A stretch of DNA of 55,004 nucleotides, taken from the NCBI GenBank assembly GCA_017634975.1, contig JAGBMJ010000057.1, forward strand, positions 1 through 55,004. The letters run 5' to 3'. The position numbers and the translations under genes were made by a program. The notes below the pieces were generated by a model that was given only the letters and a program-made list of their open reading frames with translations, had not been told where the DNA came from and did no database searches. The stretch is from Lachnospiraceae bacterium. GTDB taxonomy: Bacteria; Bacillota; Clostridia; Lachnospirales; Lachnospiraceae. This document shows, one piece after another, positions 5,890-41,735 of the stretch (position 1 is the first letter of the stretch; every line of letters begins with the position of its first letter).

Positions 5890-5962
5890 CCGTTATTTCC
5901 TTTCTTTTGCTCCCGGGTTCCGACTTCCGCTTAGCCTTCCTCTTTTCCGTTACCAAAAGCCA

Positions 5963-6529: not shown

Positions 6530-6568
6530 GATCACTTATCTGCTTACTGCGTATGCACGGTAAAAATC

Positions 6569-6706
6569 TTACCGGTTCTGATTCTCGCCAACGCTTTCAT
6601 CTTTCTGCCGGAAGTACTCCTTCATTTTTTCCCGGTTTCTGCGTTTCAGTTTTATCGTGCCCACACCGATGGCAATCACAACAATGATAAAGAGTAAAAA
6701 TCCCAT
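6569..6706 (-). CDS. 45-aa single-pass membrane protein
   Basis: A short frame with a good ribosome binding site (CGGAGATGATC before ATG) encodes a hydrophobic segment (LLFIIVVIAIGVGTI) followed by a very basic, then acidic tail (KLKRRNREKMKEYFRQK). It is probably a small inner-membrane protein with a cytoplasmic tail. It is the first of three genes on this strand with the SRAP and radical SAM genes. The basic segment recurs, fused to the radical SAM tail, in a relic at about 8.1 kb, which supports its being a real gene of this cluster. Confidence 0.6.
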   Translation of the reverse strand: MGFLLFIIVVIAIGVGTIKLKRRNREKMKEYFRQKDESVGENQNR

Positions 6707-6790
6707 CTGATCATCTCCGTTTTCTTAATATTTTCACATCTATCCTACCATGAACACTGCTGATTTTCAATGAAACAGGAGATTCAAAAA

Positions 6791-6838
6791 ACCACGAGGT
6801 CCGTCCCCGTGGTTCTATATCATTATTATTTGATATAG
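6791..6838 (-). terminator. Tandem hairpins, distal terminator
   Basis: ACCACG..CGTGGT (6791-6813) is followed on the minus strand by TTTTTTGAA. Next to it CTATATCA / TGATATAG (6815-6838) forms a perfect 8-bp stem. It is a second barrier downstream of the dehydrogenase gene. Confidence 0.6.
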
Positions 6839-6877
6839 CAGATATCAAATCTTGTTATGTCCGAAAATAAAGCAAAA

Positions 6878-6901
6878 GAGGATTCCGCGAACGGAACCCT
6901 C
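6878..6901 (-). terminator. Terminator of the 3-hydroxyacyl-CoA dehydrogenase gene
   Basis: The minus-strand stem GAGGGTTCCG / CGGAATCCTC has a tight TTCG tetraloop and is followed by TTTTGCTTT. Confidence 0.8.
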
Positions 6902-6943
6902 TTATGCATCCCCGGAGGGGTGCCTTGCATTGCCTTTTCTCTA

Positions 6944-7909
6944 TCACTTCTTGTAATCGTAGAAGCCCTTCCCGGCATTGACTCCGGTCTCTCCCTTGTC
7001 GATCTTTTCTTTCAACATTGTGCAGATCCGGTTCTCCAGCGAGCCTTCCACCTTGGCTTCCGGCTTCATAATGTGAATATTGTATGCCGTTTCCAGACCT
7101 ACGATATCCAGGATCTGGAACGGCCCCGCAGGCGCTCCCGTCGCCAGTTTCCAGGTCAGATCGATCGTCGCCGGATCCGATACTTCATTTGCCCAGAGCG
7201 CCTGTGCCGCGCTTAAGAAAGGAACCAGCATTGAATTCAGGATGTATCCGGGCTGTTCTTTATGCAGTTTCAGCGGAACCATATTGATCTCTGTAGCAAA
7301 AGCGACCACTTTCTCGTAGATCGCCGGATCGGTACCGGGATGCCCCATGACTTCTGCCGTGTTGTTTTTCCAGATCGTATTGGCAAAATGAAGCGCCAGA
7401 TATTTTTCCGGTCTTCCGGTATGCTCTGCAAATCTGCTGGGAAGCATCGTGGAAGAATTGGTAACGAGTATCGTCTTTTCCGGCAGGAGATCCTTCATCT
7501 GCTCGTACACAGCGATCTTCGCATCCGGATCTTCCGACATGGACTCGATCACGATATCGGCATCCGCAACTGCCTTTGCCATATCCAGTTCAATGCTGAT
7601 ATTATTTTTAAGATTCTCACTGCCGGTCTTCAGCAGTTCATCAATCTTCTCTTCCGTGATCCCGTCCCAGCTGCGGATCATACCTCTTGGGTACAACATC
7701 TTCCCCACCGGATTCGGGATCAAAGCCTTGGCCCCTTCCAGATCCTGCAGCATCAGTTTTGAATATCTCTCGATCTTGGGCGTTGTTCTACCGATCGATC
7801 CCTCACTTCTCAACCAGAAGGTCACTTTGTGTCCTGTGTACGCACACATCAGACCGATCTGCGTTCCGAGTACGCCGCCACCTGCTACCACTACATTTTT
7901 CAATTCCAT
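6944..7909 (-). CDS. 3-hydroxyacyl-CoA dehydrogenase family protein
   Basis: This 321-aa protein has an N-terminal Rossmann fold (GGGVLGTQIG, residues about 10-19) that binds NAD(H), the central LVTNSSTMLPS block, a His in ALHFANTIWKN, and the C-terminal 3HCDH domain ending AGKGFYDYKK. It oxidises a 3-hydroxyacyl-CoA or a related hydroxyacid. It is diverged from the butyrate-operon Hbd in this window: the usual HFFNPV motif is HFANTIW and the fold carries a roughly 30-aa insertion after beta-2. A different substrate, possibly not a CoA ester, is likely. It has its own promoter and terminator and is monocistronic. Confidence 0.8.
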   Translation of the reverse strand: MELKNVVVAGGGVLGTQIGLMCAYTGHKVTFWLRSEGSIGRTTPKIERYSKLMLQDLEGAKALIPNPVGKMLYPRGMIRSWDGITEEKIDELLKTGSENLKNNISIELDMAKAVADADIVIESMSEDPDAKIAVYEQMKDLLPEKTILVTNSSTMLPSRFAEHTGRPEKYLALHFANTIWKNNTAEVMGHPGTDPAIYEKVVAFATEINMVPLKLHKEQPGYILNSMLVPFLSAAQALWANEVSDPATIDLTWKLATGAPAGPFQILDIVGLETAYNIHIMKPEAKVEGSLENRICTMLKEKIDKGETGVNAGKGFYDYKK

Positions 7910-7971
7910 TTTTGAACCTCCAATACGTGATTTGATTTTGACCCGAAGAATTCTCCTCTGATCCGCTCAAT

Positions 7972-8000
7972 ATTTTAACATATCTGTCCCCTCACGACAA
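7972..8000 (-). promoter_or_regulatory. Promoter of the dehydrogenase gene
   Basis: TTGTCG (7995-8000) and TAAAAT (7972-7977), 17-base spacer, read on the minus strand. It lies just downstream of the chimeric relic. Confidence 0.6.
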
Positions 8001-8048
8001 TCGGTAAAACGCAGCACAACGTACCGGCAGGATTCTTCTCATCTCCGT

Positions 8049-8150
8049 TCAGCAATTTCCCGTATGGACATGGTTTAAATACTTTGCCGCGGTCTCCGCC
8101 AGATCCCGGAATACCTGTTTCATGTTTTCCCGGTTTCTTCGTTTCAGTAT
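8049..8150 (-). pseudogene. Chimeric relic: small membrane protein joined to radical SAM tail
   Basis: Directly after the TAA of the DUF4003 gene and in the same frame, the minus strand encodes LKRRNREN, then MKQVFRD, then LAETAAKYLNHVHTGNC and a stop. The first part matches the basic segment of the 45-aa protein at 6.6 kb (LKRRNREKMKEYFR). The second matches the last residues of the radical SAM enzyme at 5.05 kb (LAETAAKHLKYVYTGNC, stop). The SRAP gene and most of the radical SAM gene that should lie between are absent. This is the scar of a duplicated three-gene cluster that suffered an internal deletion. Confidence 0.75.
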
Positions 8151-9137
8151 TTAATTATTCGCCGCGCTTGCTGCGGTTGTGGATGCGATCAGGATCAGCA
8201 TAACGATCTCTTCCGCGATGATCAGCGCCAGAGCGCTTCCGATCGAAGTTGCATCGGTAGATACCACCTGCGCCGAATATTCCTGCGCTACCAAAAGTGC
8301 CGCAAACATCGCTCGGTATTCTTTTCCCAGTGCAATATTTCCAAATCCTTTGTGCTTCTTGAGCAGTTCGGAAACCTCCTGTATCTCTTCTGCGATCTCC
8401 GCCGCATCCAAGTTCACATCGACCAGAGCCCCCAGTGCTGCCAGTTCCGTCGACTTGCCGTATTTTACGCCCTTCTTTTTCAAAGCATCGAAGATATCCG
8501 CTGCCTTTGCGCACTTCTCTTCTGTTCCGCTGCCGCTCAGACAGAGTACCTGGCAAAGCCCCTGTACCGCATCTTTATGAAACGGAAACTTTTTCTTCAG
8601 GATGTCATAGCAGGCTTCCATCTCATCGATCAGCTTGTCCGAATCCTCCGGCATCAGCGCCATGACCGTTGCCAGCGGCATATCCTCGCTGCCGGTCAGG
8701 AGCGGATGCTCCTTTCTCATCTTCTTCATGATCTCCTGCATCTTATCGATCACTTCATCCGCCTGCCCCACTTTGTGCTGTTCGCAGATGAGCAATGCAC
8801 ACAGTACCATATAAGACGTCGTGAACACCTTCCCGCCCCGGATCTTATCATATACCCCGATCACTTCATCGAGAAAAGCTTCCGGATTACGGTCGATCGC
8901 CATCTTGGACAGCAGCACCAGTTCCGAGATACCACGCAGATCCGAAAAAATCCCCTGCTTATTCTTAAGGATCTCCCTGCATTCCTTCATCTTTGCAGGA
9001 TCGGCCTGCAGCCCGGCATTTGTGTAGGCACTGGCAGCAACGATCGTCATGATCTCAAACTCCCACTTGAAATCTTTATTGATCACCGTATAGTTTTCAG
9101 CCAGTAATTCACATTTTTCCCTTAAAGACTGTTTCAT
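8151..9137 (-). CDS. DUF4003 family protein
   Basis: This 328-aa protein is mostly alpha-helical and matches the DUF4003 pattern (WEFEIMTIVAASAYT, then VYDKIRGGKVFTTSYM, and HPLLTGSEDMPLATVMAL). No function is established. The C-terminus ends in a hydrophobic stretch (ALALIIAEEIVMLILIAST) that could lie in a membrane. The gene is monocistronic with its own promoter. Its stop is followed in frame by relic sequence of another gene cluster, so the 3' flank is a rearrangement junction. Confidence 0.8.
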   Translation of the reverse strand: MKQSLREKCELLAENYTVINKDFKWEFEIMTIVAASAYTNAGLQADPAKMKECREILKNKQGIFSDLRGISELVLLSKMAIDRNPEAFLDEVIGVYDKIRGGKVFTTSYMVLCALLICEQHKVGQADEVIDKMQEIMKKMRKEHPLLTGSEDMPLATVMALMPEDSDKLIDEMEACYDILKKKFPFHKDAVQGLCQVLCLSGSGTEEKCAKAADIFDALKKKGVKYGKSTELAALGALVDVNLDAAEIAEEIQEVSELLKKHKGFGNIALGKEYRAMFAALLVAQEYSAQVVSTDATSIGSALALIIAEEIVMLILIASTTAASAANN

Positions 9138-9188
9138 ATCCCCGCTCCTTCATTGTTAGTTTTAACAGCATATATCCGCTAATAAATG

Positions 9189-9217
9189 ATTATACTATAG
9201 ATGAAACCTTGATACAA
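9189..9217 (-). promoter_or_regulatory. Promoter of the DUF4003 gene
   Basis: TTGTAT (9212-9217), 17-base spacer, consensus TATAAT (9189-9194) on the minus strand. Confidence 0.65.
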
Positions 9218-9255
9218 GCACGCCTTATTTCGGCAGGGACACGTCATACTGGGTG

Positions 9256-10431
9256 TTATTTTTTCTGTTTTTCGTTTTCGCCATCCGGCCAGTGGAATCC
9301 GGACTGCTCCTTCTGATCAGCTGCATCCTTCTTCTCCGGAGCCTGTTTCTCCTCAAACCACTGATAGCGTTTGTCCAAACCATTTTGTACGTTTGCATCC
9401 GCCAGATTTGCATCTGCCATTGCCGTTCGGAGCTTCTTCGGCCTATTCAGCCCCGGGATCACTTTCTTCACGATCTTTACAGTGATGAAAATAATGACTG
9501 CCCATACTACCAGCCCCGGCAGGTTGCTTAAGAACCAAACCAGCAGATCCGTAAATGTGGTGATCACGCGATTCAGATTATCAGTAAATCCTTCTGCAAT
9601 GCGATCCCAGGTCGTCGGGTCCGGTTCCGGCTCCGGCTCCACGATCTCCGTCAGTTCCTGCACCTCGGTCACGTGAAGATTCACGGTCGTATAATCCACT
9701 TTATTATCATAGGTGCGCAGCTGGGATTCCATACTTTCGATCTGGTAGCGCAGATTGGAGATCCGGTTCTCGATGGTGATCATATCGTTGATATCCGTCG
9801 TTGCTTCCAGCAGTTCCATCATATTGTCCATCTCTGCCTGCAGCACCCTCTTGTGGCTGTCCAGATCCACGTAATCCAGTGTTACATCATTTACATTTTC
9901 ATTCTGCTGGGTGATATTGGACTGATCCGCCACCTCGGTCAGAAATGTATCTGCCTGCGCCGAAGGGATACGCAGTGTCATGGTCGCATAGCGCTGTACT
10001 TCGCCCGAATAATTGCTGCCGTTATAGACATTACTGTCCTCGATATAACCGCCCAGAGCTTTCACCCGACCGGTCACCGTCGAGATCAGCGTCTGAAAAT
10101 CCTGCGTTTCCACTTCCAGACTGATACTGCGGATCAGCTTGCGGTTTGTGACCGTCGGTGTGTTCACTTCGATCCCCTCTGCTGCATTATCAAAACTGCC
10201 GTTGCTTTGATAGATATCTGCGGTATCGTAGTACTCTGCTTCTGCCACTTCCTCTGCAGCATAACTCTGGTTTTCCATTGCCACATAATTATCCGTCGCC
10301 ATTGCCGGTGCCGTAGCAGCTTTTGTTGACCCGGCAGAACTTCCACACCCACCAAGCAGCAAAGCTGCCGTTAATCCTCCCGTGATCGCCCATCTGCGCA
10401 AACCGTTTCGAATGTTCTTTGTGTTCTCCAT
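9256..10431 (-). CDS. DUF4349 lipoprotein
   Basis: This 391-aa protein has a lipoprotein signal (LTAALLLGGC, lipidated Cys at about residue 29), a Ser/Ala/Tyr-rich linker, and a DUF4349 domain (RKLIRSISLEVETQDFQTL to VDYTTVNLHV) with a coiled-coil insertion (HKRVLQAEMDNMMELLEAT). A C-terminal membrane helix (SNLPGLVVWAVIIFITVKI) and a charged cytoplasmic tail follow. It is surface-located with both a lipid and a transmembrane anchor. Function is not known; DUF4349 proteins are common envelope proteins. Confidence 0.85.
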   Translation of the reverse strand: MENTKNIRNGLRRWAITGGLTAALLLGGCGSSAGSTKAATAPAMATDNYVAMENQSYAAEEVAEAEYYDTADIYQSNGSFDNAAEGIEVNTPTVTNRKLIRSISLEVETQDFQTLISTVTGRVKALGGYIEDSNVYNGSNYSGEVQRYATMTLRIPSAQADTFLTEVADQSNITQQNENVNDVTLDYVDLDSHKRVLQAEMDNMMELLEATTDINDMITIENRISNLRYQIESMESQLRTYDNKVDYTTVNLHVTEVQELTEIVEPEPEPDPTTWDRIAEGFTDNLNRVITTFTDLLVWFLSNLPGLVVWAVIIFITVKIVKKVIPGLNRPKKLRTAMADANLADANVQNGLDKRYQWFEEKQAPEKKDAADQKEQSGFHWPDGENEKQKK

Positions 10432-10611
10432 AATACTACTCCTCCCTTTTTTGTATGCGACCGTTTCATCTTAATCTTTCCGGCCGTTTTCCTGTATCTG
10501 AATAGGATACGGTCAGTATTCTTTCTCTTTATGGGTTATTTCAGCAATTTATATTTTTTTGTTGATTATGTATGTACAAAATATGAACAAATTGTGAATA
10601 TTGAACAGTTA

Positions 10612-10640
10612 TTGCGCAAACATGAGGAAAAAGGTATAAT
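10612..10640 (+). promoter_or_regulatory. Promoter of the LURP-like gene
   Basis: TTGCGC (10612-10617), 17-base spacer, perfect TATAAT (10635-10640). It starts transcription about 40 bases before the ATG at 10687. The rest of 10432-10611 shows no gene. Confidence 0.7.
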
Positions 10641-10686
10641 AGGGATAGTTTTATCGACATACATACCATTGCAAAGGGGGCCGCCG

Positions 10687-11334
10687 ATGATCAAAGAACT
10701 GGTGCTTATTGCCGGAGGAGCAGCGATCCATGGTGCCGGAAAAGTCGTAAAGATGACCGGCGAAAAAATCAATGAGATCCAAAAAGACCGCTTCGAAAAA
10801 GTAGTGGAACAGAACAGGAATTCCGAGACCGATCATGAACAGATCTGGGTGGAAGAAGAGATCATCAAGAAGCGGAAACTGCTGGAAGAAAAAGTTTATC
10901 ATCAATATAATATTTATACGGTGGATAACCAGCCTCTCTATCGCGCCAGAGCCGGTATCATCAAAGGTGTAAAACGTATGGAGATCCACAACGGTACGCA
11001 GGATAAGATCGCGTTTATCGAAGCTACCGGTGACATCTTATCTGAAAAAAAACGTTATCCGGAATACAGCATCTTTATCGGCGGAGCCAGAGCGGATATG
11101 GCGAAGATCGCTTATGACGGCAACACACCTTTCCTGGAACTGAACCATAAAAAATGGAAAGTACTCTATGACAAAAACGATATTGAGAAGATCATCGATG
11201 CAGACGGTTTCACGCTGCTGGATGTCGAAAAAAAGATTGCCAAACGGCAGCTGTTAAATATATATACCGATGATCAAAAACTGTGTGTGCTGCTGTTTCT
11301 GGCGGGAATGCTGAATGAACTGAAAGAAAAATAA
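10687..11334 (+). CDS. LURP-one-related / tubby-fold-like protein
   Basis: This 215-aa protein starts at the ATG preceded by AAAGGGGG; a longer upstream frame exists but lies in the promoter and is rejected. Residues about 65-210 show the alternating strands of LURP-one-related (tubby-like) proteins: YNIYTVDNQPLYRA, KRMEIHNGTQDKIAFIEA, YSIFIGGARADMAKI, ELNHKKWKVLYD, GFTLLDVEKK and LNIYTDDQKLCVLLFLAGML. A short N-terminal segment (IKELVLIAGGAAIHGAGK) could contact a membrane. Bacterial members have no assigned function. It is one of few + strand genes here, monocistronic, and converges on the racemase gene. The family call is from pattern only. Confidence 0.6.
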   Translation: MIKELVLIAGGAAIHGAGKVVKMTGEKINEIQKDRFEKVVEQNRNSETDHEQIWVEEEIIKKRKLLEEKVYHQYNIYTVDNQPLYRARAGIIKGVKRMEIHNGTQDKIAFIEATGDILSEKKRYPEYSIFIGGARADMAKIAYDGNTPFLELNHKKWKVLYDKNDIEKIIDADGFTLLDVEKKIAKRQLLNIYTDDQKLCVLLFLAGMLNELKEK

Positions 11335-11342
11335 AGGACTTA

Positions 11343-11378
11343 AAAAGGAACCGTTCTCCGAAACGATTCCTTTTTTTT
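11343..11378. terminator. Bidirectional terminator
   Basis: AAAAAGGAA(C)CGTT - CTCCG - AACG(A)TTCCTTTTTTTT serves both the + strand LURP-like gene and the convergent racemase gene. Confidence 0.8.
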
Positions 11379-11379
11379 A

Positions 11380-12822
11380 TTATTGATAAAACTCATATTC
11401 ATAAATCTCGTTTGCCAGCAGATCATCGCCCTGATAACGCGTACTCTTGATCAGGCGATCATTTCCGTCATAGAAATTCTTACGCCACTCCGGAACCTCT
11501 GCGCCGGCCCGCAGGTTCTTTTCGATCACGACACGCCCCTGCTCATCATATTCATACCAGGTCTGGATCGTGATCATCGCACCGTCACCGCTGTGATACA
11601 GCATCTGCTTATAGGCAACACGCCCGTTGACATCATAAGTATATTTGATCCCCTGCGTCGTACGGATCACATTATCCCCGGTAGACAGCGTCACCCGGAT
11701 CGGATTGTCATGACTGTCATAATCATAACTCAGCACCCCGGTCTCCATACTGTCTTCAAACCGGTGTTCCAGGGATACCTTTTTTCTGGAATTGTAGGTG
11801 AACCGACTGGTCGTAACGGTTCCGAACGGATTGTCACCGCTGGTCGTCTGTTCTGCGATCGTGCCGTCCTCGTTGTATTTATATTTGCGCCGGATCACCA
11901 GTCCCGACGGCGTATTCGGATTGCGTTCCAACTGTGACGTTTCTACCAGACAGACCGGATTGTCATGACTGTCATAGAAGAAATCTTTTCGGGTCTCCAC
12001 ACCAAAGCTGTCACTGGAATGTGTCGTTCTCCGGTATGCAACATGTTCTTCCCCGTCTACCGGGATCTTCTGACCGGCGATCACGATCTCGGATAGCCCC
12101 GGATCCTGCCGGTTCGCTTCTTTCCGCTCCTCCGTCATCACCCGTTTGATCAGCTCATTGATATGGATCTCCACACTGTCCAGACAGGGTACCGGACAAT
12201 TATCCGTATGCAGGATCAGCGGCAGCTCCGTACATCCCAGCACCACCGCTTCAATGCCCTGACTGTCGATCATCTTCTGAATGATCCACTGAAACTCCCG
12301 CAGCGTGGATTCCTTTACGATACCGAATTCCAGTTCTTCAAAGATCCTCCTGGCGATCAGGATCCGATCTGCCGGATCGGGAATGCACACCTCGATCCCG
12401 GCTTCCAGGAAATCTTTCTTCATATAATCCTTTTCCATCGTAAAGATCGTTCCGAGCAGACCGATCCTGCGATATTGACGCCGTTTGACCTCTTCGCAGA
12501 CGACTCTGGGGATACTGACCATCGGCACCCGTGTCCGTTCTGTGATCTCGTCATAGACGACATGCATCGTCGCGGCGGTCAGGGAGATCACCTCTGCCCC
12601 GCTCCGCTTCAGACGGTTCACCTTTTCCGTCAGATAATCTGCCAGCAGATCATAGCGTCCGGAGGAAACATATTCCCACGCCCTACGGAAATCGACACTT
12701 TCAATGACGATTTCCGGCATCTGTTTGCCTCCCGTCATCCGGTCGATCCTTGTATTCAGTTCTCTATAGTACATGAGGGTGGATTCCGGTCCGGTTCCGC
12801 CCACCAAGCCTATTTTTTTCAT
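11380..12822 (-). CDS. Aspartate/glutamate-racemase domain fused to YD-like repeats
   Basis: Residues 1-235 are an Asp/Glu/hydantoin racemase-type domain (KKIGLVGGTGPESTLMYYRELN, then ESVDFRRAW, and the second catalytic motif VVLGCTELPLIL). The first catalytic motif, normally CNT(A/M)H or TNTMH as in E. coli YgeA, reads TAATMH, so positions equivalent to YgeA Thr83/Asn84 are Ala83/Ala84. Residues about 260-480 hold six or so repeats of the RHS/YD kind (FFYDSHDNPV, YKYNEDGTI, YDYDSHDNPI, YTYDVNGRV, YEYDEQGRV, NFYDGNDRL), predicted as a beta-sheet layer. No signal peptide is present, so the fusion is cytoplasmic. Substrate is unknown. Monocistronic. Confidence 0.8.
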   Translation of the reverse strand: MKKIGLVGGTGPESTLMYYRELNTRIDRMTGGKQMPEIVIESVDFRRAWEYVSSGRYDLLADYLTEKVNRLKRSGAEVISLTAATMHVVYDEITERTRVPMVSIPRVVCEEVKRRQYRRIGLLGTIFTMEKDYMKKDFLEAGIEVCIPDPADRILIARRIFEELEFGIVKESTLREFQWIIQKMIDSQGIEAVVLGCTELPLILHTDNCPVPCLDSVEIHINELIKRVMTEERKEANRQDPGLSEIVIAGQKIPVDGEEHVAYRRTTHSSDSFGVETRKDFFYDSHDNPVCLVETSQLERNPNTPSGLVIRRKYKYNEDGTIAEQTTSGDNPFGTVTTSRFTYNSRKKVSLEHRFEDSMETGVLSYDYDSHDNPIRVTLSTGDNVIRTTQGIKYTYDVNGRVAYKQMLYHSGDGAMITIQTWYEYDEQGRVVIEKNLRAGAEVPEWRKNFYDGNDRLIKSTRYQGDDLLANEIYEYEFYQ

Positions 12823-12894
12823 CCCTGCATCCTCCGGTAAGAATTCTCACAAGGACAGCCGACTGTGCCTGCATGTCTGAAAGAACCCTATAAT

Positions 12895-12922
12895 ATTATA
12901 CCCTAATCCGGACAAAATGCAA
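12895..12922 (-). promoter_or_regulatory. Promoter of the racemase-YD gene
   Basis: TTGCAT (12917-12922), 16-base spacer, TATAAT (12895-12900) on the minus strand, about 70 bases before the ATG. Confidence 0.65.
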
Positions 12923-12970
12923 AGGTTAAGGTGCTTGATTCATCACCGATTTTTGCTGATTTATAAAAAA

Positions 12971-13013
12971 ATGTCTTTTGGCGTTCCGTTCCTTCCCGGA
13001 CTACCAAAAGACA
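12971..13013 (-). terminator. Terminator of the small membrane protein gene
   Basis: An 11-bp stem ATGTCTTTTGG / CCAAAAGACAT with a T-run (ATTTTTTTA) on the minus strand, just after the stop at 13030. Confidence 0.8.
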
Positions 13014-13029
13014 TCTCCGGCTCCTCTTC

Positions 13030-13368
13030 TCAGAGCTGTTTTTTCCTGATCGAATATACCCGAAACAGCACCAGGCTCACCACCAGCAGAACCACCGCTA
13101 CGATCACCAGCACAATGCCGATAACAGAAAATGTATTCCCTAATTTACAGGCTGCCTCGATTGCTTCCTCGCCTTCCAGTACCCGACCATTGACCGTCAT
13201 CGTTCCCCCCTCCGGATTGGCTACAAATATCCTTCCAACCACGAAGAATACCACGCCTACGATCCCCGAAATGAATGATATACCTCCCCATACGATACCA
13301 TTGACGAAAACTACGATTGTCATAAAGTCTTTCGATACACCCCGGTTAGTAAGAACGTTCGTCTGCAT
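13030..13368 (-). CDS. Small membrane protein, unknown
   Basis: This 112-aa protein starts at the ATG preceded by GGGAGGTAATAAAA; an open extension upstream runs into a neighbouring gene and is rejected. Two hydrophobic regions (residues about 16-50 and 80-104) flank a short acidic loop (NPEGGTMTVNGRVLEGEEAIEAA), so it is a two- or three-pass membrane protein with a basic C-terminal tail (RVYSIRKKQL). No family is recognised. Confidence 0.65.
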   Translation of the reverse strand: MQTNVLTNRGVSKDFMTIVVFVNGIVWGGISFISGIVGVVFFVVGRIFVANPEGGTMTVNGRVLEGEEAIEAACKLGNTFSVIGIVLVIVAVVLLVVSLVLFRVYSIRKKQL

Positions 13369-13514
13369 TTTTATTACCTCCCTGCTCCTATATAGGATAC
13401 CACCATCTGTACATAGTACTATACCTTTTCTTTCATCCTTTTTCCACTCTGTCCGGGTTGCACTTTTGCACCGGATGGTTGCTGTAGATCTTCCCCCAAT
13501 CCGGTAGTATGTTT

Positions 13515-14408
13515 TCAGAATAGATCCAGCATACTGTCGAGGTAGATCTCTTCCCGGACTTTGAGCTGATACTCCGGCCTGGTCATATAGTAGAGCAGGA
13601 ATTCCAGGATGACGGCGCTGCCGAGACTGCGGCCTTCGATCTTGAAATTGGAAAAGCCCTGCGGGGCGTAGACGTTTTGGATATCCGCAATGCTGATAAA
13701 TCCCGGATTGCTCATGGCATCTGAAAACCGATAGCCCCGCTCCGCCGTGGGCGATGCACAGATATGATCCGCGCAATCCTCGCCCAGACTCTTACGGCTG
13801 ACATTTTCATAGCAGCACTTCCGCTCCTTGCAGATAAAGCTGCAACACTCGTTACAGAGGAATTCCACTTTCTGCTTCTGCGTCTCTGTCAGGGAATTCA
13901 GCTGACGAAATTCTTTGTTCAGGCGGAAATCCGGAACCACATACTGAAACTCTTCCCGGTTCAGTTCCTGGACAAACTGTGAGAACTCCCGCAATACCTT
14001 GGTCGTGGAAGAGACAAAGTAAAAGCCGGGGTAGTTTTGTTTCAGATAGTCCAGCAGAAGATCCGAGGTCAGGATCACGCCGTTCTGCGTCCTGCCGTTC
14101 TTCTCAAACAAGGCGCACAGACGGTTGCATTTCTTATCGTCAAGGTGTTCTTCCCGCAGCAGGGAATTACTGAAGGTCAGCCGCGATGAGATCCTATACT
14201 CTGCCATCAGGGCTGCTGCATTGCCCGGCGTGGCTTCGCCAAAGCCCACACGTCCGCCGCCCCAGAGGCAGTCCGCCGGCGCCCCGTAGATCGAACCGAT
14301 CTCACACCAGTCGTAGAAGTACTCTCTGTGCTCATAAAAGAGCGGCAGGAAGACTTTATACAATTCATAGAATTCAAACAGCCCCGGCAGGTGATAGCAG
14401 ATATTCAT
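13515..14408 (-). CDS. Peptidase-U32-like protein
   Basis: This 297-aa soluble protein has features of the U32 (collagenase-like/UbiV-like) superfamily: an ordered alpha/beta N-terminus (NICYHLPGLFEFYELYKVFLPL), SRLTFSNSLLREEHLDDKKCN, a Cys-rich segment around residues 190-205 (CNECC..C..CC) that could hold an iron-sulfur cluster, and the closing GFSNFKIEGRSLG. The start is the second ATG, which has GGAGAG 5 bases upstream; the first ATG would sit inside that site. Family assignment is tentative and the substrate unknown. Confidence 0.5.
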   Translation of the reverse strand: MNICYHLPGLFEFYELYKVFLPLFYEHREYFYDWCEIGSIYGAPADCLWGGGRVGFGEATPGNAAALMAEYRISSRLTFSNSLLREEHLDDKKCNRLCALFEKNGRTQNGVILTSDLLLDYLKQNYPGFYFVSSTTKVLREFSQFVQELNREEFQYVVPDFRLNKEFRQLNSLTETQKQKVEFLCNECCSFICKERKCCYENVSRKSLGEDCADHICASPTAERGYRFSDAMSNPGFISIADIQNVYAPQGFSNFKIEGRSLGSAVILEFLLYYMTRPEYQLKVREEIYLDSMLDLF

Positions 14409-20402: not shown

Positions 20403-22103
20403 TTAGCAATCCTTTTTCGGCCAAAAGGAATCGTTCTTATGTGCCAGACGCTGTTCAAAGTCCGCTACCGGCATCGGCCGGTCAAAGAAAAAGCCCTGTG
20501 CCATAAAGCAGTCGCAATCCTGCAGCAGTTTTACATGTTCTTCAGTTTCCACGCCTTCCACGATACATTCGAGCCCCATGTCCTGCGCCATCGCGATCAC
20601 ATGGCGAAGCATGGTGCTGTCGTAGTCCTGATCCTCTTTCACCTTGGGAAGAAAACACTTATCCAGTTTCAGTACATTCCATGGTACCTCACGGATCAGA
20701 TTGATGGAAGAGTATCCTGTTCCAAAGTCGTCCACCGAGGTGGCGATCCCGGCTTCTTGCAGCTGTTTCACGATCTTTTTCAGATTGTCAAATTCCACTT
20801 CCGTAGTGGTCTCGGTCAGTTCTACTTCAATGCACTCGTGCGGAACCTGATATTTGTCGATGATCTCCAGGATATGCTTCACCAGATCCAGATCTCCCAG
20901 ATGTCTTCTCGACAGATTAAACGAGATCCGTACCGGCTCCTTCCCCTGATCCATCCATCTGCGGATATCCATACATACATTTTCCAGCATATAGAAATCC
21001 AGCTGACAAATACCTGCACCACGCTCCAGCACCGGAATAAATGCCCCCGGAGAGATGACCTTTCCGTCGGATACCCAACGGCACAGTGCCTCCGCCCCAA
21101 CCAGATGATAATCATGCAGTTCGATCTTGGGCTGATAATATACCTGAAACTCCTTCTTCCGGATCGCCTCCGGAAAACTGCTCTCAATCCTTTTGTCCTC
21201 GATCCGCTGTTTTTCCATCGCCTCAGAGAATACGATCTCCGAGAGACTTTTTCGCTTCGCGATCATCAGCGCACTGCTGATCCGATCCATGATATCTTCC
21301 GGCCGATAGATCGCATCCTCTTCCGCCGGCAGATAATACCCTGCCACCGCAGAAAGGTTCAACCGTTCTCCGGTCTCCCGGTTAAAAACAAGCGGCTGCC
21401 CATGCAGGTGCTCGGAAACAATTTCTTTATCCTTCCGGAGGAACATGACTACAAAATTATCTCCGCCAATGCGTCCGATCACAGAAGGCTCAGTCAGCTT
21501 ATCCCGCAGTCTGTGCACATATTCCTTCATCAGTTCCGTTGCCTGATTACGTCCCACGCGCGCATTGACCAGCGAAAAGTTTTTCAGATTAAAATAGCAA
21601 TAGCCGTAATCCTGCACCGTTTTTTGTGCGATCGCCTTTCCCATTGTCTTCATAACATATGGCATATTACGGATCTTGAGCTGCATGTCGTTATACGTAA
21701 ACATATCGATCAGATCCAGAAGACGCATTCTGCCGGTAAATCCATAGAAGGTTTTCTGCAGGACGCGGATCTTCTCCAGATCCTCTGCATCCCACGGTTC
21801 CATATCGGCCCGCCGGCTTATGGTGCAGATCGTAGTGGTACCACCATCCGTAACCTCTCTCGCAACAAAAGGCTGCGTCGTATCTACCGGCCCGTTCTCA
21901 TAAAAAACATCAACCGTACCGTTATGATCTGCCTCATCCTTTGGCGTGAGAAAATAATCCACCTGCACTTTTGCCACACGCACCACCGGACAGACCGGTT
22001 CGATCGCACTGCAGATCTTGTCTTTTTGAAAAGTCTTGATCTGCTCCAGTTTCAGAAGACAGGCCCCCAGGGCCTCCGCATATTCTCTGTTATCGATCGC
22101 CAT
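20403..22103 (-). CDS. c-di-GMP phosphodiesterase, degenerate GGDEF plus EAL
   Basis: This 566-aa cytoplasmic protein has an N-terminal sensor-like region (1-150), a GGDEF domain whose signature is GGDNF (213-217), so cyclase activity is probably lost, and an EAL domain. The EAL domain keeps the catalytic set: E338 in EAL, N396, E428, D458-D459 in DDFGTG, K479, E516 and Q536. It should hydrolyse c-di-GMP to pGpG, perhaps with GTP binding to GGDNF as an activator. No membrane segments are seen. An inverted repeat (TAACTATTC / GAATAGTTA, 22125-22160) lies in its leader. Confidence 0.88.
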   Translation of the reverse strand: MAIDNREYAEALGACLLKLEQIKTFQKDKICSAIEPVCPVVRVAKVQVDYFLTPKDEADHNGTVDVFYENGPVDTTQPFVAREVTDGGTTTICTISRRADMEPWDAEDLEKIRVLQKTFYGFTGRMRLLDLIDMFTYNDMQLKIRNMPYVMKTMGKAIAQKTVQDYGYCYFNLKNFSLVNARVGRNQATELMKEYVHRLRDKLTEPSVIGRIGGDNFVVMFLRKDKEIVSEHLHGQPLVFNRETGERLNLSAVAGYYLPAEEDAIYRPEDIMDRISSALMIAKRKSLSEIVFSEAMEKQRIEDKRIESSFPEAIRKKEFQVYYQPKIELHDYHLVGAEALCRWVSDGKVISPGAFIPVLERGAGICQLDFYMLENVCMDIRRWMDQGKEPVRISFNLSRRHLGDLDLVKHILEIIDKYQVPHECIEVELTETTTEVEFDNLKKIVKQLQEAGIATSVDDFGTGYSSINLIREVPWNVLKLDKCFLPKVKEDQDYDSTMLRHVIAMAQDMGLECIVEGVETEEHVKLLQDCDCFMAQGFFFDRPMPVADFEQRLAHKNDSFWPKKDC

Positions 22104-36477: not shown

Positions 36478-36506
36478 TTGAATTGTATGATCAAATCTGC
36501 TATTAT
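36478..36506 (+). promoter_or_regulatory. Promoter of the SDR gene
   Basis: TTGAAT (36478-36483), 17-base spacer, TATTAT (36501-36506). The expected start of transcription falls at or next to the ATG at 36514. Confidence 0.65.
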
Positions 36507-36513
36507 TGCATCT

Positions 36514-37245
36514 ATGAATACTAAACATCAACCTATTGCAATCGTTACGGGAGCCTCCCGCGGGATCGGCGCCGCCATCGCAGGACAACTTGCCCGGGAT
36601 GGCTATGACCTGCTGCTCTGCTGCCACAGAAATACGGAACTGCTTGAAAAAACAGCCGTTTCGCTGCAGCGCGAGCATAAGGTATCCGTCACCACATTCT
36701 GCGGCGATCTGGGGGATCCCGCATTTGTTTCCGACATATTCCGCAGCATTTCCCGTCTGGATCTGCTGGTAAATAATGCCGGCATCTCCAAGGTGGGCCT
36801 TTTGCAGGATATGACCGATGCCGAGTGGCTGGAGCAGATGAATGCCAATGTGAACAGTGTCTTTTATCTCTGCCGTGCCGCGATCCCTCTTATGTTAAAG
36901 GAACATGCCGGCCGCATCATCAACCTCTCTTCGGTCTGGGGCAGTGTCGGCGCATCCATGGAGTGTGCCTATTCCGCGAGCAAGGGCAGCATCGATGCGC
37001 TCACACGCAGTCTGGCCAAAGAACTGGCGCCCAGCGGGATCGCCGTCAATGCTGTAGCTCCCGGTTTCATCGACACCGAGATGAACGCCCATCTGTCCGA
37101 GGAAGAAAAAGAGATGCTCTTCGCGGAGATCCCGGCCGGACGTGCCGGTACCCCCGAAGAAGTCGCATCTCTTGTATCCTTACTTGCCAAAGCGCCGCTC
37201 TATCTGACCGGTCAGATCCTCCGCATCGACGGCGGATGGATCTAA
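36514..37245 (+). CDS. Short-chain dehydrogenase/reductase, FabG-like
   Basis: This 243-aa SDR has the cofactor motif TGASRGIGAAIAG, the NNAGIS structural motif, and the catalytic Ser-Tyr-Lys (NLSSVWGS and AYSASKGS), followed by PGFIDTEMN and a C-terminal IDGGWI. It is an NAD(P)-dependent oxidoreductase closest in look to 3-oxoacyl-ACP reductase, but there are no fatty-acid genes nearby, so the substrate is open. The ATG has no ribosome binding site, and a promoter -10 ends 7 bases before it: a leaderless mRNA is likely. Its stop overlaps the stop of the convergent gene by 2 bases. Confidence 0.85.
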   Translation: MNTKHQPIAIVTGASRGIGAAIAGQLARDGYDLLLCCHRNTELLEKTAVSLQREHKVSVTTFCGDLGDPAFVSDIFRSISRLDLLVNNAGISKVGLLQDMTDAEWLEQMNANVNSVFYLCRAAIPLMLKEHAGRIINLSSVWGSVGASMECAYSASKGSIDALTRSLAKELAPSGIAVNAVAPGFIDTEMNAHLSEEEKEMLFAEIPAGRAGTPEEVASLVSLLAKAPLYLTGQILRIDGGWI

Positions 37246-40200
37246 TTCACATAGCCGAGCAGCTCCGCTTCATGCTCATTGACCATAAGCTTTCTCGTGC
37301 CGCCTTCCATAAGCAGTTTGCGTTCGGTCACGCCTGCCACGATCGGATCGCCGACGCGCATATTCACTTCCAGCCGGCAGTGGACCAGTTCCACGATCCC
37401 GGCCTTGTCCACGGTTCCCACAGCGATCGCCATGGAACCCTCCATCTGCATCACCAGTGCTGCCCGTTCCAGAGCAACGGATAATGCCCCTCCTCTGGCA
37501 GCCAGTCCGAAGATCTTCCGTCCGTTAAACCGCATATGCATACCGCTATCATGGATCCGTATGCTGCCGGAACTGTTTGCATAGGTTCCGATGCCGGCGA
37601 TACAGTTTCCGGCACCCAGGATATCTACACCACTGTCCCGGATCAGGATATCCTGCTTCCCCTGAAGCGCACCGATCATCGTTCCGTTGGAGATCCTGGC
37701 CTGGATCTTCAGATTGCATTTCAGGAGCCGGATACTTACATCGCCTTCAAAGCAGCCTACACCGATGCAATCCATGCCGGACACATTGATATCCAGTTTT
37801 CCGCACAAAACACTGATCCCTTCCAGACTGCGGCTCCGGCCGCCGCCGATCGCGATACAATGGTTTCCTTCCGGACGCAGGATCAGATTGCCGTTCATCG
37901 CACAGGTGATGGTGCCGAACGCACTGTTGTAACCGGCCCCGATACAATAGGCGTCGGACAGAGCCGGAACGATGGCAAGCGTTCCTTCCCCTTCGATCCG
38001 CAGAATGCTGTCTTCCGGCACGTGTATGCCGTTTCCGTCAAATTCGTTATGCCCCTCCACGACCAGTGTAAGGGATGCACCATGCCCGATCTCGATGCAT
38101 GGAAGGGAATCCATATCCCCGATATTTACATTTTTGATCGTCAGCCGGCATTCACAGCCGTCCTTGACCTTGATGCCGATCCCCGCCGTATAGTCCGGAT
38201 TGCCGTGCATCGTCAGCTCCGGCTGTGAGATCACGATACCGGTATAATGTTCCATCGCCAGCTGCATCAGGAACAGTTCCTTCTCACGGCTCACAATGTA
38301 GATCTTCTTCTTCAGCTCATGCCCGCCTTCCACATTGGCGCGTATGATCTCGTCCCGTACCGAAGATGCAATACTCCCTGTCAGCACAAAAGCCGGTTTC
38401 GCAGTGTAATATCCCTGTATCAGATCAATGCCCATCCGGATCACTGCCGAAAGCTCATACATGTTTTCCACACCCTCGGCCAGCGCCTGAAAGCCGTTGT
38501 CATGAGCAAACTCGATGATTGTCTTTACGAAATGCTGCTTCTTGGGATCCTCATGCACATTTTCGATCAGGGACCGGTCGATCTTTACATAGTTCGGAAG
38601 GCACTTGAGCAGGTTACTCATATTGGAATAGCCGTTGCCGAAGTCATCGACCGCCACCTCAAACCGGCCCTCCCCACTCCGCTTTCTCAGTACATCAAAA
38701 TTCCCGCCTTCAAACTCCGTCTCTTCCGTTACTTCCACCACAAGACGATCATAGAGATGCCCGTACTTCCGCCGCAGCATCATATAATCCGTCTCGTTCA
38801 GATAATGCCCGGGAATACTGTTGATAAAGATCTTGCGTGTCCCCAGTTCCGGGACAAGCTGATCCAGCTGTTTGAGCACATTACTGAAGGTCGCCAGTTC
38901 GACATCATACAGCCGGTTATCCATAGTCGCGTATTTCAGGATCGTAAGTGGTGACAGATTCGGTTCCTGCCGGGTACGCATCAGCGCCTCATACGCTACC
39001 ACTTCGCCGGTCTTGGCCGATACGATCGGCTGATACGCGTAGCGGAAATCGTTTTCATTTAAGAGTTTCAGTACAGCCTCGTGTTCTTCCGGCTTTTCCT
39101 CTTCCGGGTTCATCGCATGCATCGAGCGCCTGCTGCCGCGGCTTTCCTTTAAGGTACGCTTCTTGGCAAAAGACTCATCGAGAACCTCCTCCACACTGCT
39201 CTTCTCATCCGGATGCACGATCATCCCGCTGACATTAGCTTCCAGTGTATATTCCTTACCGGAGATGCGGTTATAGATCACCAGGCGGCCGTTCAGCATC
39301 CCGCAGAAGTTTTCCACCACATCTTCCCATTCGTTCTGCGGTACGGCGATGATAAACTCATCCGCACCGATCCGGCCGACACTTGCCCCTTCCGGAAGGC
39401 TGTCCTTAATGATCTGGGAAAGTGTCTGTATTGCAATATCCCCCTCTGCGTGACCGTATACATCATTGATATTGCCCAGGCGGTCCAGATCCACGCAGAT
39501 CGTTGCCAGATCCACCTTATCCAGACGGCAGTTTTCCAGCATATGTCCCAGATCGGACTTGAACCCTCTGCCATTCCGCAGACCGGTCAGCATATCCGTC
39601 TCCTGAAGTCTGCGCATATTTTCATTGATGTTAAACAGCTCGTTATTGGCATACATCAGCCGACGCTCGGCGATATAACGCCCGATCGTGGTATCCAGGA
39701 TCACGCTGCACAGCTCCAGTACGCAGGCATCGCCATCCATCGCTTCCGCCACATGCACCAGATAGCCGAAATAGGCCTCCCTGCAATGGATCGGGATCAG
39801 CGTGATCACCTTATGCTCGCTGAATACACGCTCGGCATCCGGAAACAGGCTGTCCAGAGTAAACGAAAACCAGGTCCGCGCATCCTCACGCGTATCCGCA
39901 AGCAGATAAAATTTTTCATACGGAAGAGGAACTCTGCCACCACCGGCATAGAGATCCTGCAGGAAAGAATCCCGCATACAGATAAACGTATTTTTCGGAA
40001 GCAGCTCTTCAACGACCTTGGAGATCTCTCCGACATCATTGCACTCAAGCAGCTTATCCGTAAACGAAAAGATATTGCCCGCCATGTTATGATAGCCATG
40101 CATCATTTCATACTGCCAGGCCTTTTCCACCTCGGGGTCATAATCCTTAAGCGGTTCCGCTTTCATTTCGGAATAGGGGATCCTGAGAGCCTGACATTTT

Positions 40201-40457
40201 TGCCGCAGACTGTTCAGAAAAACTGCGTCCATCGCCGGACTGGGCACAACGATCATCTCGTCCACCGGCACATTTCCAAGAAAGTACATGCACTCCGCAC
40301 CGCGGTCGGTTTCCTGGGAAAGGGCCCGCTTCGCCATGGCGATCGGGAGCAGCACCACATAGTCCCCCCGTGCGTGGATCTTACGGATCTCCCGATCCGT
40401 CTGTAAAAAACGATCCCTCTCAAATATACTTCCAACGCATAACGCAATACTCTTCAT
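37242..40457 (-). CDS. GGDEF-EAL protein with C-terminal beta-helix-like domain
   Basis: This 1071-aa protein has no signal peptide or membrane segment. Residues 1-265 are an unrecognised sensor region, with a GAF-like stretch (about 140-260). A GGDEF domain follows (about 285-440) with GADEF (364-368) in place of GGDEF. The EAL domain (about 460-705) keeps E490 in EAL, N546, E575, D604-D605, K625, E661 and Q681, so phosphodiesterase activity is plausible. Residues about 720-1065 are short repeated strands rich in Gly, Asn, Ile and Val (DCIGVGCFEGDVSI, NCIAGIGTYANSSGSIRI), as in a right-handed beta-helix. This C-terminal part is unusual for a cytoplasmic c-di-GMP protein. Confidence 0.82.
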   Translation of the reverse strand: MKSIALCVGSIFERDRFLQTDREIRKIHARGDYVVLLPIAMAKRALSQETDRGAECMYFLGNVPVDEMIVVPSPAMDAVFLNSLRQKCQALRIPYSEMKAEPLKDYDPEVEKAWQYEMMHGYHNMAGNIFSFTDKLLECNDVGEISKVVEELLPKNTFICMRDSFLQDLYAGGGRVPLPYEKFYLLADTREDARTWFSFTLDSLFPDAERVFSEHKVITLIPIHCREAYFGYLVHVAEAMDGDACVLELCSVILDTTIGRYIAERRLMYANNELFNINENMRRLQETDMLTGLRNGRGFKSDLGHMLENCRLDKVDLATICVDLDRLGNINDVYGHAEGDIAIQTLSQIIKDSLPEGASVGRIGADEFIIAVPQNEWEDVVENFCGMLNGRLVIYNRISGKEYTLEANVSGMIVHPDEKSSVEEVLDESFAKKRTLKESRGSRRSMHAMNPEEEKPEEHEAVLKLLNENDFRYAYQPIVSAKTGEVVAYEALMRTRQEPNLSPLTILKYATMDNRLYDVELATFSNVLKQLDQLVPELGTRKIFINSIPGHYLNETDYMMLRRKYGHLYDRLVVEVTEETEFEGGNFDVLRKRSGEGRFEVAVDDFGNGYSNMSNLLKCLPNYVKIDRSLIENVHEDPKKQHFVKTIIEFAHDNGFQALAEGVENMYELSAVIRMGIDLIQGYYTAKPAFVLTGSIASSVRDEIIRANVEGGHELKKKIYIVSREKELFLMQLAMEHYTGIVISQPELTMHGNPDYTAGIGIKVKDGCECRLTIKNVNIGDMDSLPCIEIGHGASLTLVVEGHNEFDGNGIHVPEDSILRIEGEGTLAIVPALSDAYCIGAGYNSAFGTITCAMNGNLILRPEGNHCIAIGGGRSRSLEGISVLCGKLDINVSGMDCIGVGCFEGDVSIRLLKCNLKIQARISNGTMIGALQGKQDILIRDSGVDILGAGNCIAGIGTYANSSGSIRIHDSGMHMRFNGRKIFGLAARGGALSVALERAALVMQMEGSMAIAVGTVDKAGIVELVHCRLEVNMRVGDPIVAGVTERKLLMEGGTRKLMVNEHEAELLGYVN

Positions 40458-40535: not shown

Positions 40536-41672
40536 TTATGCAGAAATCGGGTCATTCTTTATCTCTTTATCACCGCCCGGCAGACCGGCGATCATCAGAA
40601 GCCAGATCCCGTTCTTGTTAAAATACGGCAGGTAGGCTTCCGCCAGTGCATAAAAGGTAAAGGCCAGGACCAGCAGCATGCCCATCCGGTCTCTCTCCCG
40701 GTACAGTCTGCGGAATAGCCAGAAGAGGATCACCACATAGATGATCACAAAGAGGAGCCCCTCATGGAAAAACGCATTCACAAAACCGATCTCCGTCGCC
40801 TGCTCCACCTCACGATAGCCGAACAGCTTCACCGGCGTGGAAAGAAACGCTTCACGCGCATGAGCCAGCCGTCCGGTCGTCACGGTATTCATCACATCCC
40901 AGTAGGTATTCTCCGTCCCCATCGAATGTTCCGGATACGGAAAGATCCCCAGGGTATAGATCAAAAGAAGTTCCGCCGCCATCAGGATATTTCCGGCAAT
41001 GTAAAATATCTTTTCGGCTTTTTCATCCTTCCAAAAACGCAGAAACAATGCCGCCGCAAAGATCATCACAAAGGCCGCCAGCCCCATCTTGGATTCCACC
41101 AGGACGAACGGGACCGCTACGACCACCGCCACTGCGGCAAACATCCAGGCCTTCATCCGGCCGGCGTACAGATACAGCCCCATCACGAAGGCACGCATCC
41201 AGAAAAAGGAAAAACCATTCGGATGAAAGAACCCCAGGCTGATCCTTTTTTCGATCCCATGCCGGTACCAGTCCTCGGTCACCAGAGCGTTATGCAGCCC
41301 CAGTGCCGCCAATACGAAGGTCAGCAGGAGGATCCCCACAGTTCCGAAGAAAAAACAGGTCATCACCTTTTTCCGGTCCTGTCCCCGCCCGGCCAGCAGG
41401 ATCAATGCCAGCCGCAGGATCAGCGCCGAATGCTGGAAATGATAGCAGACCAGCCCATATACCCCCAGCAGCGCGCACAGCCACCAGTCCTTTTTCCAAT
41501 CCATCGAACACAGGATGGACGCCGAAAAACACAGCATCCCGGCGACGATGATCCACGGCTCGTGATAACCGCCAAATGCAAATCCGCTGGGTGATACCAG
41601 CAGCTCACAGCATAAGCCGATCCAGAATAACACCGTAGCCGCCTTTTCCCTGTAGGACATCAAATTCTGCAT
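40536..41672 (-). CDS. Wzy-like polysaccharide polymerase / O-antigen ligase-like protein
   Basis: This 378-aa protein has 10-11 membrane segments and one larger outside loop with SMGTENTYWDVMNTVTTGRLAHAREAF, an Arg-rich loop typical of Wzy polymerases (TGRxxxW/A type). The LGFFHPNGFSFFWMRAFVMGLYL segment also fits the O-antigen ligase/polymerase family. It probably polymerises or ligates a surface polysaccharide. The start is the ATG preceded by AAAGGGATCT; a TTG 11 codons upstream is less likely. No glycosyltransferases are adjacent. Confidence 0.75.
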   Translation of the reverse strand: MQNLMSYREKAATVLFWIGLCCELLVSPSGFAFGGYHEPWIIVAGMLCFSASILCSMDWKKDWWLCALLGVYGLVCYHFQHSALILRLALILLAGRGQDRKKVMTCFFFGTVGILLLTFVLAALGLHNALVTEDWYRHGIEKRISLGFFHPNGFSFFWMRAFVMGLYLYAGRMKAWMFAAVAVVVAVPFVLVESKMGLAAFVMIFAAALFLRFWKDEKAEKIFYIAGNILMAAELLLIYTLGIFPYPEHSMGTENTYWDVMNTVTTGRLAHAREAFLSTPVKLFGYREVEQATEIGFVNAFFHEGLLFVIIYVVILFWLFRRLYRERDRMGMLLVLAFTFYALAEAYLPYFNKNGIWLLMIAGLPGGDKEIKNDPISA

Positions 41673-41703
41673 AGATCCCTTTCCCGACTTTTTCCTGTCA
41701 GAC

Positions 41704-41735
41704 AAAAAGCCGGCAGGGGTACTACGATCCCTGCC
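41704..41735 (-). terminator. Terminator of the CAP-domain protein gene
   Basis: Minus-strand stem GGCAGGG / CCCTGCC with a 10-base loop, followed by GGCTTTTTG. It lies about 40 bases past the stop. Confidence 0.7.

Follow-up and report, generated by a model that had tools for sequence, protein, structure and literature searches.

A Lachnospiraceae family of predicted EAL-type c-di-GMP phosphodiesterases with a C-terminal beta-helix

The window, the whole stretch of 55,004 nucleotides that was analysed, carries on its minus strand a gene encoding a protein in which an N-terminal region, a GAF-like region, a GGDEF domain, an EAL domain, a connector and a beta-helix follow one another (Table 1). 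The initial annotation had described a GGDEF-EAL protein with a beta-helix-like C-terminus at this place; its coordinates were correct, the gene lies on the minus strand, and the observation as a whole was confirmed, while its interpretation was supported in part. The plus-strand frame at 37242-40457 is interrupted by stops. Twelve full-length orthologues of 49-93% identity were found in congeneric genomes, and dN/dS between the window gene and four orthologues was 0.005-0.25 over all domains, so that a gene artefact or a false fusion could be ruled out. The upstream membrane protein has no Pfam match at 0.01 and, judged from its sequence, looks like an O-antigen polymerase or ligase. On the other side, the short-chain dehydrogenase (SDR) gene is convergent and no operon follows from its proximity; it adjoins the orthologue in 11 of the 12 loci, and an NlpC/P60-type gene lies near the orthologue in all 12. 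In the wider family, the ten neighbours identified in ten loci, including two upstream ones, are all of different kinds: CotH kinase, GGDEF, clostripain, DHH, Y-family polymerase, symporter, LytR, HD with response regulator, TPP enzyme and beta-CASP.

Table 1. Position of the gene, its parts and its neighbours in the window.
Feature	Residues	Position	Strand	Remarks
Whole ORF	1-1071	37242..40457	-	ATG start; from ORF list and translation
N-terminal region	1-115	40113..40457	-	no Pfam match; possibly a reduced periplasmic-binding-protein lobe
GAF-like region	116-286	39600..40112	-	common to paralogues; no Pfam match; 'GAF-like' is our reading
GGDEF domain	287-429	39171..39599	-	PF00990, E 3.7e-22; degenerate motif GADEF
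GADEF motif	364-368	39354..39368	-	position counted on the orthologue alignment
EAL domain	461-688	38394..39077	-	PF00563, E 5.3e-48; catalytic residues kept
Connector	689-720	38298..38393	-	predicted helix at ~698-712 in the model; E703-I704 conserved
Beta-helix	721-1071	37245..38297	-	AlphaFold2 model, alignment to solved beta-helices, coil register
Upstream membrane-protein gene		40536..41705	-	ORF, 78 bp away; same place in the closest orthologues L099, L100 and L103
Short-chain dehydrogenase gene		36478..37245	+	adh_short, E 1e-56; convergent, 4-base overlap with the 3' end

The EAL domain scored 163.9 bits in Pfam against a curated cut-off of 31.3. The residues E490, N546, E575, D604/D605, E661 and Q681, placed at these numbers by the initial annotation, are invariant in the 60 aligned family members, as are E578 and E664, and K625 is kept in 59 of the 60. 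These positions belong to the metal- and substrate-binding set which we take to be required for an active EAL domain, and the window protein is most likely, on the evidence of its sequence, an EAL-type c-di-GMP phosphodiesterase. The GGDEF domain presents another picture. The GADEF signature reported earlier was recovered on the orthologue alignment, where the motif is degenerate in every one of the 13 orthologues, the window protein among them (GADEF in seven, GSDEF in six), and the diguanylate cyclase active-site motif GG[DE]EF is absent from all of them.

The C-terminal part was modelled by AlphaFold2 with a mean pLDDT of 93.7 and a pTM of 0.88. The model aligns with many solved right-handed beta-helices, with stacked coils over most of the domain. 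From about residue 837, seven coils of 28-31 residues are in register, and shorter ones precede them. The beta-helix that had been proposed from the letters is therefore borne out by structure prediction. No database entry offers another explanation of this region: Pfam at E up to 10 has no family matching the window C-terminus, and nothing of the kind was found among the best 25 of 27 NCBIfam matches. A sequence search of the PDB with a 36-row profile returned two chains, with a best E of 0.23.

Across the family, the geometry of this part is strongly kept. The span 681-724, from EAL to helix, is 44 residues long in 53 of 60 members and 39-46 in the other seven, and in the 53 rows for which the span 740-1014 of the helix was counted, it measures 271-279 residues, which rules out a freely expanding repeat. 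The C-termini of L039 and L048 are longer, with 428 and 433 residues versus 365-394 in the other complete ones compared. In three congeneric genomes (G004, G1047 and G1050) the sole match is a shorter helix of about 145-178 residues; the full helix is thus not always needed. Conservation was counted over 54 complete C-termini after six short or cut helices had been dropped. Columns conserved at 70% or more are mainly glycine and aliphatic. Asp, Lys, Arg and His are missing from them, and the only residues other than Gly, Pro and aliphatics are E703, two Tyr, three Asn and one Cys. The coil positions vary, apart from the rung glycine and its neighbours. Within subgroups, polar positions are kept: the 13 orthologues share 23 conserved polar columns, of which 17 lie no later than residue 781, and several are conserved within the ten-row set with LacI-type N-termini, so that subgroup-specific ligands are possible. 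Helix dN/dS against the four closest orthologues was 0.095-0.220, rough values as dS there was 0.5-1.3, and the helix changes faster than EAL. As the role of the helix, the initial annotation had offered an oligomerising scaffold or a sensor of some intracellular polymer. With helix length and connector so well preserved, and with family-wide columns that are mainly glycine and aliphatic, these alignments lean towards a structural or docking role.

The fusion had been called unusual. No published description of it was found in the titles and abstracts of the literature searched, a scope outside which most subscription journals lie, and in that respect the word stands; an isolated oddity it is not, since it forms a family that has a match in 33 of the 35 congeneric genomes, at as many as three different loci in one genome, and that recurs in many related gut bacteria. 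In the fetched loci, which include 19 of the further congeneric ones, EAL directly precedes this C-terminus in 64 of the 67 ORFs that carry it; the three ORFs without EAL are L069, which is open at a contig edge, and the secreted-looking L082 and L083. The weak congeneric matches G1034 C152 and G1045 C13 were left out. Five duplicates of the 64 were removed ahead of the tree and the column counts. In the EAL tree, the 60 helix-linked EALs stand on one side of a branch and 19 others on the opposite side, with a support of 100/100. The window's own genome gave 25 EAL matches, 18 of which were fetched and four of which are helix loci; C137 and C102 (near-copies by score) and C58 (a fragment) were left out, and L136, an EAL of the same genome that the profile did not pick up, is absent from the analysis. 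Pairwise identities of EAL and C-terminus correlate over 54 rows (Spearman 0.74, for pairs that are not independent).

In contrast with this fixed pair, the N-termini are exchanged. Their length runs from 76 to 710 residues among the 60 members, and relatives carry a LacI-type periplasmic-binding-like domain (Peripla_BP_3 in 8 of 16 relatives scanned), a short leader or membrane helices; the N-terminal type, labelled by hand, needs at least 14 changes on the EAL tree. Residues 1-125 of the orthologues gave a weak colinear profile match with the LacI-type domain of the paralogues (probability 7%, E 0.005), and residues 116-286 matched the paralogues' middle region over 45 columns (probability 80%, E 1.4e-5). 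Taken together, alignments, tree and model show one EAL lineage with a predicted right-handed beta-helix of near-constant length at a fixed distance, a pair that has been kept while the N-terminal domains were exchanged. The enzyme is a known one and its architecture is new.

EAL and GGDEF are cytoplasmic domains. By hydropathy, used here in place of a dedicated signal-peptide prediction, neither a membrane segment nor a leader was seen in the window protein (highest 19-residue Kyte-Doolittle mean 1.35), as had been noted before; a secreted protein was ruled out on these two grounds and the protein is probably cytoplasmic. Hydrophobic N-termini occur in 4 of 60 relatives. In L039, L048 and L115, whose N-termini were judged by eye, two hydrophobic stretches lie ahead of EAL and helix, so that both would stay on one side of the membrane.

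The explanation that we tentatively favour, one that may well have to be given up, is a c-di-GMP phosphodiesterase whose N-terminal inputs are exchangeable and whose helix is fixed, as a docking, oligomerisation or allosteric platform. The protein would hydrolyse c-di-GMP in the cytoplasm. In the window subgroup, EAL may be tuned in a CC3396-like switch by GTP bound to the degenerate (GADEF-type) GGDEF domain, along with the GAF-like region and the N-terminal one. The beta-helix, placed after EAL, would set the oligomeric state or dock EAL on a partner or structure, and c-di-GMP removal might thereby be local, or might take place only within the right complex. The least secure step of this mechanism is the part played by the helix.

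A cytosolic oligo- or polysaccharide sensor, in which binding of a ligand to the helix alters the activity of EAL and links c-di-GMP to the glycan load, seems rather unlikely; its candidate ligands would be storage glycan, intermediates of the cell wall or of exopolysaccharide, and imported fragments of glycans. It is suggested by secreted-looking partial relatives in other families (L061, L082 and L083), by the polar columns conserved inside subgroups, by the frequency of Peripla_BP_3 among the relatives, and by the binding of cellulose and polygalacturonic acid reported in an excerpt on Cthe_2159 (PMC6712302), a family which two relatives match below threshold. However, the lack of Asp, Lys, Arg and His in the columns conserved over the complete C-termini and the variable coil positions argue against it. 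Glycan sensing is ranked below the platform since, across the family, length and spacing have been preserved and few polar residues have. Carried further, and unlikely as a whole, the glycan reading would have Lachnospiraceae take the helix from secreted glycan-binding surface proteins, keep it in the cytoplasm and fuse it once to one EAL lineage; the resulting phosphodiesterase class would read internal or imported glycans via the helix and a second signal via interchangeable N-terminal sensors, and c-di-GMP would be lowered only when both agree.

The fold of bactofilins is also a right-handed beta-helix. The helix could be a self-assembling cytoskeletal element, with EAL decorating a filament or cluster, which we consider improbable. 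The filaments that bactofilins are reported to form (PMC12448750) and a nearly constant helix length, which would suit a building block, are consistent with this proposal, but no bactofilin family in Pfam matches the window protein even at an E limit of 10, and no polymer interface is evident in its sequence. Bactofilins are not named among the 50 structural matches listed, which shows nothing by itself.

That the GADEF domain still produces c-di-GMP, making the enzyme bifunctional, is very doubtful. The surroundings of the metal site are conserved, with VDLDRLGNINDVYGHAEGD in the window and a similar stretch in each of the other 12 orthologues, and the dN/dS of GGDEF is low, as in the other domains, but the second glycine of the motif is Ala or Ser in every orthologue. 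Among 23 GGDEF matches from 22 family proteins, the canonical motif occurs once, in the first of the two in L118. Furthermore, with the window domain as query, no GGDEF match was obtained in 38 of 60 members, a search that divergent copies can escape; Pfam sees a weak GGDEF in L048 and L049. Finally, a helix acting as lyase, epimerase or glycosidase on a cytoplasmic glycan is scarcely credible, as the C-terminus matches no Pfam family even at an E limit of 10, the family-wide conserved helix columns lack Asp, Glu, Lys, Arg and His, and a shared fold shows no function.

Enzymes of c-di-GMP turnover are usually described with inputs ahead of the catalytic domain, and an EAL clade that keeps a beta-helix at its C-terminus is wired in a different way. 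The control of c-di-GMP in Lachnospiraceae looks little studied. The beta-helix fold is best known from proteins outside cells, such as surface proteins; the helix offers a clean test case for the role of this fold inside a cell, and the natural short-helix variants are a ready comparison.

Bactofilins resemble the window protein as cytoplasmic proteins with a beta-helix; they differ by assembling into filaments, as reported (PMC12448750). Secreted clostridial beta-helix proteins (Beta_helix_3 PF18889, InlB-like, S-layer domains) show partial profile matches to the family. Such matches, with E 6e-14 to 8e-7, occur in eight genomes from other families; L061, L082 and L083 were inspected, and G315, G362, G557, G562 and G567 were left out. 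The three inspected have leader-like N-termini, Beta_helix_3 is above cut-off in L061 and below it in L082, L082 has S-layer domains, and L082 and L083 are without EAL, unlike the window protein. The Cthe_2159 family (PF14262) is likewise a beta-helix of Clostridia; it is sub-threshold in L040 and L049 (12.9 and 13.5 bits versus a cut-off of 25.8; E 0.067 and 0.044) and, with E values of up to 10 admitted, without match in the window C-terminus. The excerpt presents Cthe_2159 as biomass-binding, whereas the window helix is placed after EAL (PMC6712302). Closest in catalytic layout are Caulobacter CC3396 (GEDEF) and XOC_2335 of Xanthomonas oryzae pv. oryzicola (GADEF), in which the second motif position is altered and EAL follows as in the window protein; the excerpted text makes no mention of a beta-helix in either (PMC4823724). 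In CC3396, shown to be a phosphodiesterase, the GTP-binding GEDEF domain activates its EAL, and in XOC_2335 GADEF stands with an intact EAL whose active-site residues are conserved; deletion of XOC_2335 raises c-di-GMP and its function in motility requires both motifs, as reported in the same excerpt (PMC4823724).

In the window protein, the initial annotation had correctly recognized a GGDEF-EAL protein with an additional C-terminal domain, as borne out by the ORF and the Pfam spans (see table), and no membrane segment was seen. Its guess of a beta-helix fold for the C-terminus was also right. The C-terminal 374 residues and the N-terminal 286 residues, each searched alone against Pfam with E up to 10, gave no match. 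Among the 25 NCBIfam rows listed (of 27), the best stretches were all located inside residues 269-697 and every equivalog stayed under its cut-off.

Features of the window protein, its surroundings and the loci of relatives
Locus	Feature	Position	Strand	Remark
Window	EAL-beta-helix ORF	37242-40457	minus	1071 aa
Window	GGDEF domain	residues 287-429		Pfam
Window	EAL domain	residues 461-688		Pfam
Window	Membrane protein without Pfam match, CAP protein, amidase		minus	upstream of the ORF
Window (L129)	Second EAL-match protein	20403-22103	minus	566 aa
L032	CotH-kinase gene	5568-7646	minus	
L105	Candidate sugar ABC transporter genes	9143-13722	minus	
L118	Tandem GGDEF protein	5518-8964	minus	genome G1044
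L051	ORF with half an acetyltransferase domain	3536-4858		genome G006

The C-terminal profile matched 67 ORFs in the fetched loci and, in 64 of them, the EAL profile also matched, directly before. The exceptions are L069, which is open at a contig edge, and L082 and L083, two partial matches with leader-like N-termini. A tree was built with 60 family EALs (five duplicates removed, window added) and 19 other EALs, of which 17 come from the window's genome and 2 from genes neighbouring relatives. All 60 helix-family EALs were found on one side of a branch with a support of 100/100; the same branch was recovered in 100% of 200 bootstrap trees and the quick tree agrees. The EAL of L129 groups with the other EALs, outside the helix family. 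The connector (span 681-724) counts 44 residues in 53 of the 60 members and 39-46 in the remaining ones, and, across the 53 rows measured, the helix span 740-1014 varies from 271 to 279 residues.

The N-terminal regions are varied. According to our own labels, 31 are LacI-type, 14 window-like or other with GGDEF, 9 short, 4 membrane and 2 other, and at least 14 label changes are required on the EAL tree. The LacI-type label rests on a home-made profile from 21 of the labelled proteins; of 16 relatives searched with Pfam, 8 showed Peripla_BP_3. The congeneric L118 protein displays a hydrophobic N-terminus and a tandem GGDEF pair before its EAL and beta-helix. In L051, the half acetyltransferase domain lies at the ORF start, directly before the EAL; this junction could be due to a frame or assembly error instead of a genuine fusion, and the ORF, counted among the short N-termini, may be incomplete.

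The upstream gene order is kept in the three closest orthologues; in four others the gene immediately upstream is amidase-like, and in L102 a GGDEF gene lies upstream. Upstream of another orthologue, the L105 genes look by eye like two permeases, an ATPase and a binding protein. In L032, the CotH-kinase gene and the end of the EAL-beta-helix gene share 4 bases on the same strand.

At the genus level, the C-terminal profile matched 33 of 35 genomes, including all 23 with a completeness of 90% or more and low contamination; the two unmatched genomes reach a completeness of 77% and 72%. Across the window's family, sampled at about one genome per genus, 18 of 299 genomes, own genome included, were matched by the protein query. 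At the order level, the profile matched 17 of 392 genomes: 8 with E < 1e-70, which all belong to the window's family, a congener with a short helix and 8 partial matches from other families. At the phylum level the profile matched 3 of 398, one (G965) belonging to another family of the class. The 16 loci from named records are labelled Lachnospiraceae (8), Oscillospiraceae (3), Ruminococcus (2) and Clostridiales/Clostridia (3); rumen is stated in four of their titles and five more carry RUG isolate names, which we take to be rumen genomes. Four loci matched in the window's genome. Two of its contigs (C42 and C106) gave equal scores and share the same EAL-beta-helix gene and identical neighbours, suggesting that the assembly may contain a mixture of strains (contamination 7.46%).

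Three congeneric genomes (loci L078, L116 and L117; genomes G004, G1047 and G1050) have only a shorter helix, of about 145-178 residues. As two of these proteins are equal in length (1060 aa), a random break is hardly the cause, and the variant seems stable; no obvious remainder of the helix was seen in three frames past the stops.

Compared with the four closest orthologues, dN/dS is 0.095-0.220 for the helix versus 0.041-0.089 for the EAL, which indicates that the helix is under constraint, though less than the EAL. In 54 complete C-termini, the columns conserved to at least 70% are Gly, Pro and aliphatics together with E703, Y720, Y738, N776, C787, N804 and N1060. Polar columns are more often kept inside subgroups: the 13 orthologues keep 23, of which 17 lie no further than residue 781, and ten LacI-type members keep several. 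The other coil positions are variable. The constant spacing and size, combined with a surface that is loosely conserved across the family, would be compatible with a structural or docking function, or with subgroup-specific ligands. The helix probably originates from a secreted beta-helix family, as its partial relatives L061, L082 and L083 have leader-like N-termini, L061 has a Beta_helix_3 match above cut-off and L082 combines S-layer domains with a sub-threshold one; the transfer would have proceeded from the secreted family to the EAL fusion.

Searches for EAL/GGDEF with beta-helix terms, and with Lachnospiraceae, found no title or abstract describing the fusion. In the portion consulted of a census of c-di-GMP sensory domains, the LacI-type domain is a possible solute sensor and no beta-helix domain is among those named (PMC8846402). 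The EAL-beta-helix family, of which these searches gave no description, combines a known enzyme with a new architecture.

Nine EAL catalytic residues are identical in all 60 members and the lysine in 59. The intact EAL is a candidate c-di-GMP phosphodiesterase, one of many since the window's genome holds 25 EAL matches over cut-off, besides 3 PilZ matches. The 23 GGDEF matches are distributed over 22 family proteins, with a canonical motif in one (the first of the two in L118). The 13 orthologues have GADEF (7) or GSDEF (6), and the metal-site stretch is kept. This degenerate motif with its kept metal site, together with two precedents, leads us to read the window GGDEF as a putative GTP-binding regulatory domain. 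According to the part of PMC4823724 consulted, CC3396 likewise has an altered motif before its EAL, a GEDEF domain which binds GTP and activates the EAL, and XOC_2335 likewise carries GADEF before an intact EAL, its deletion raising c-di-GMP and both motifs being needed.
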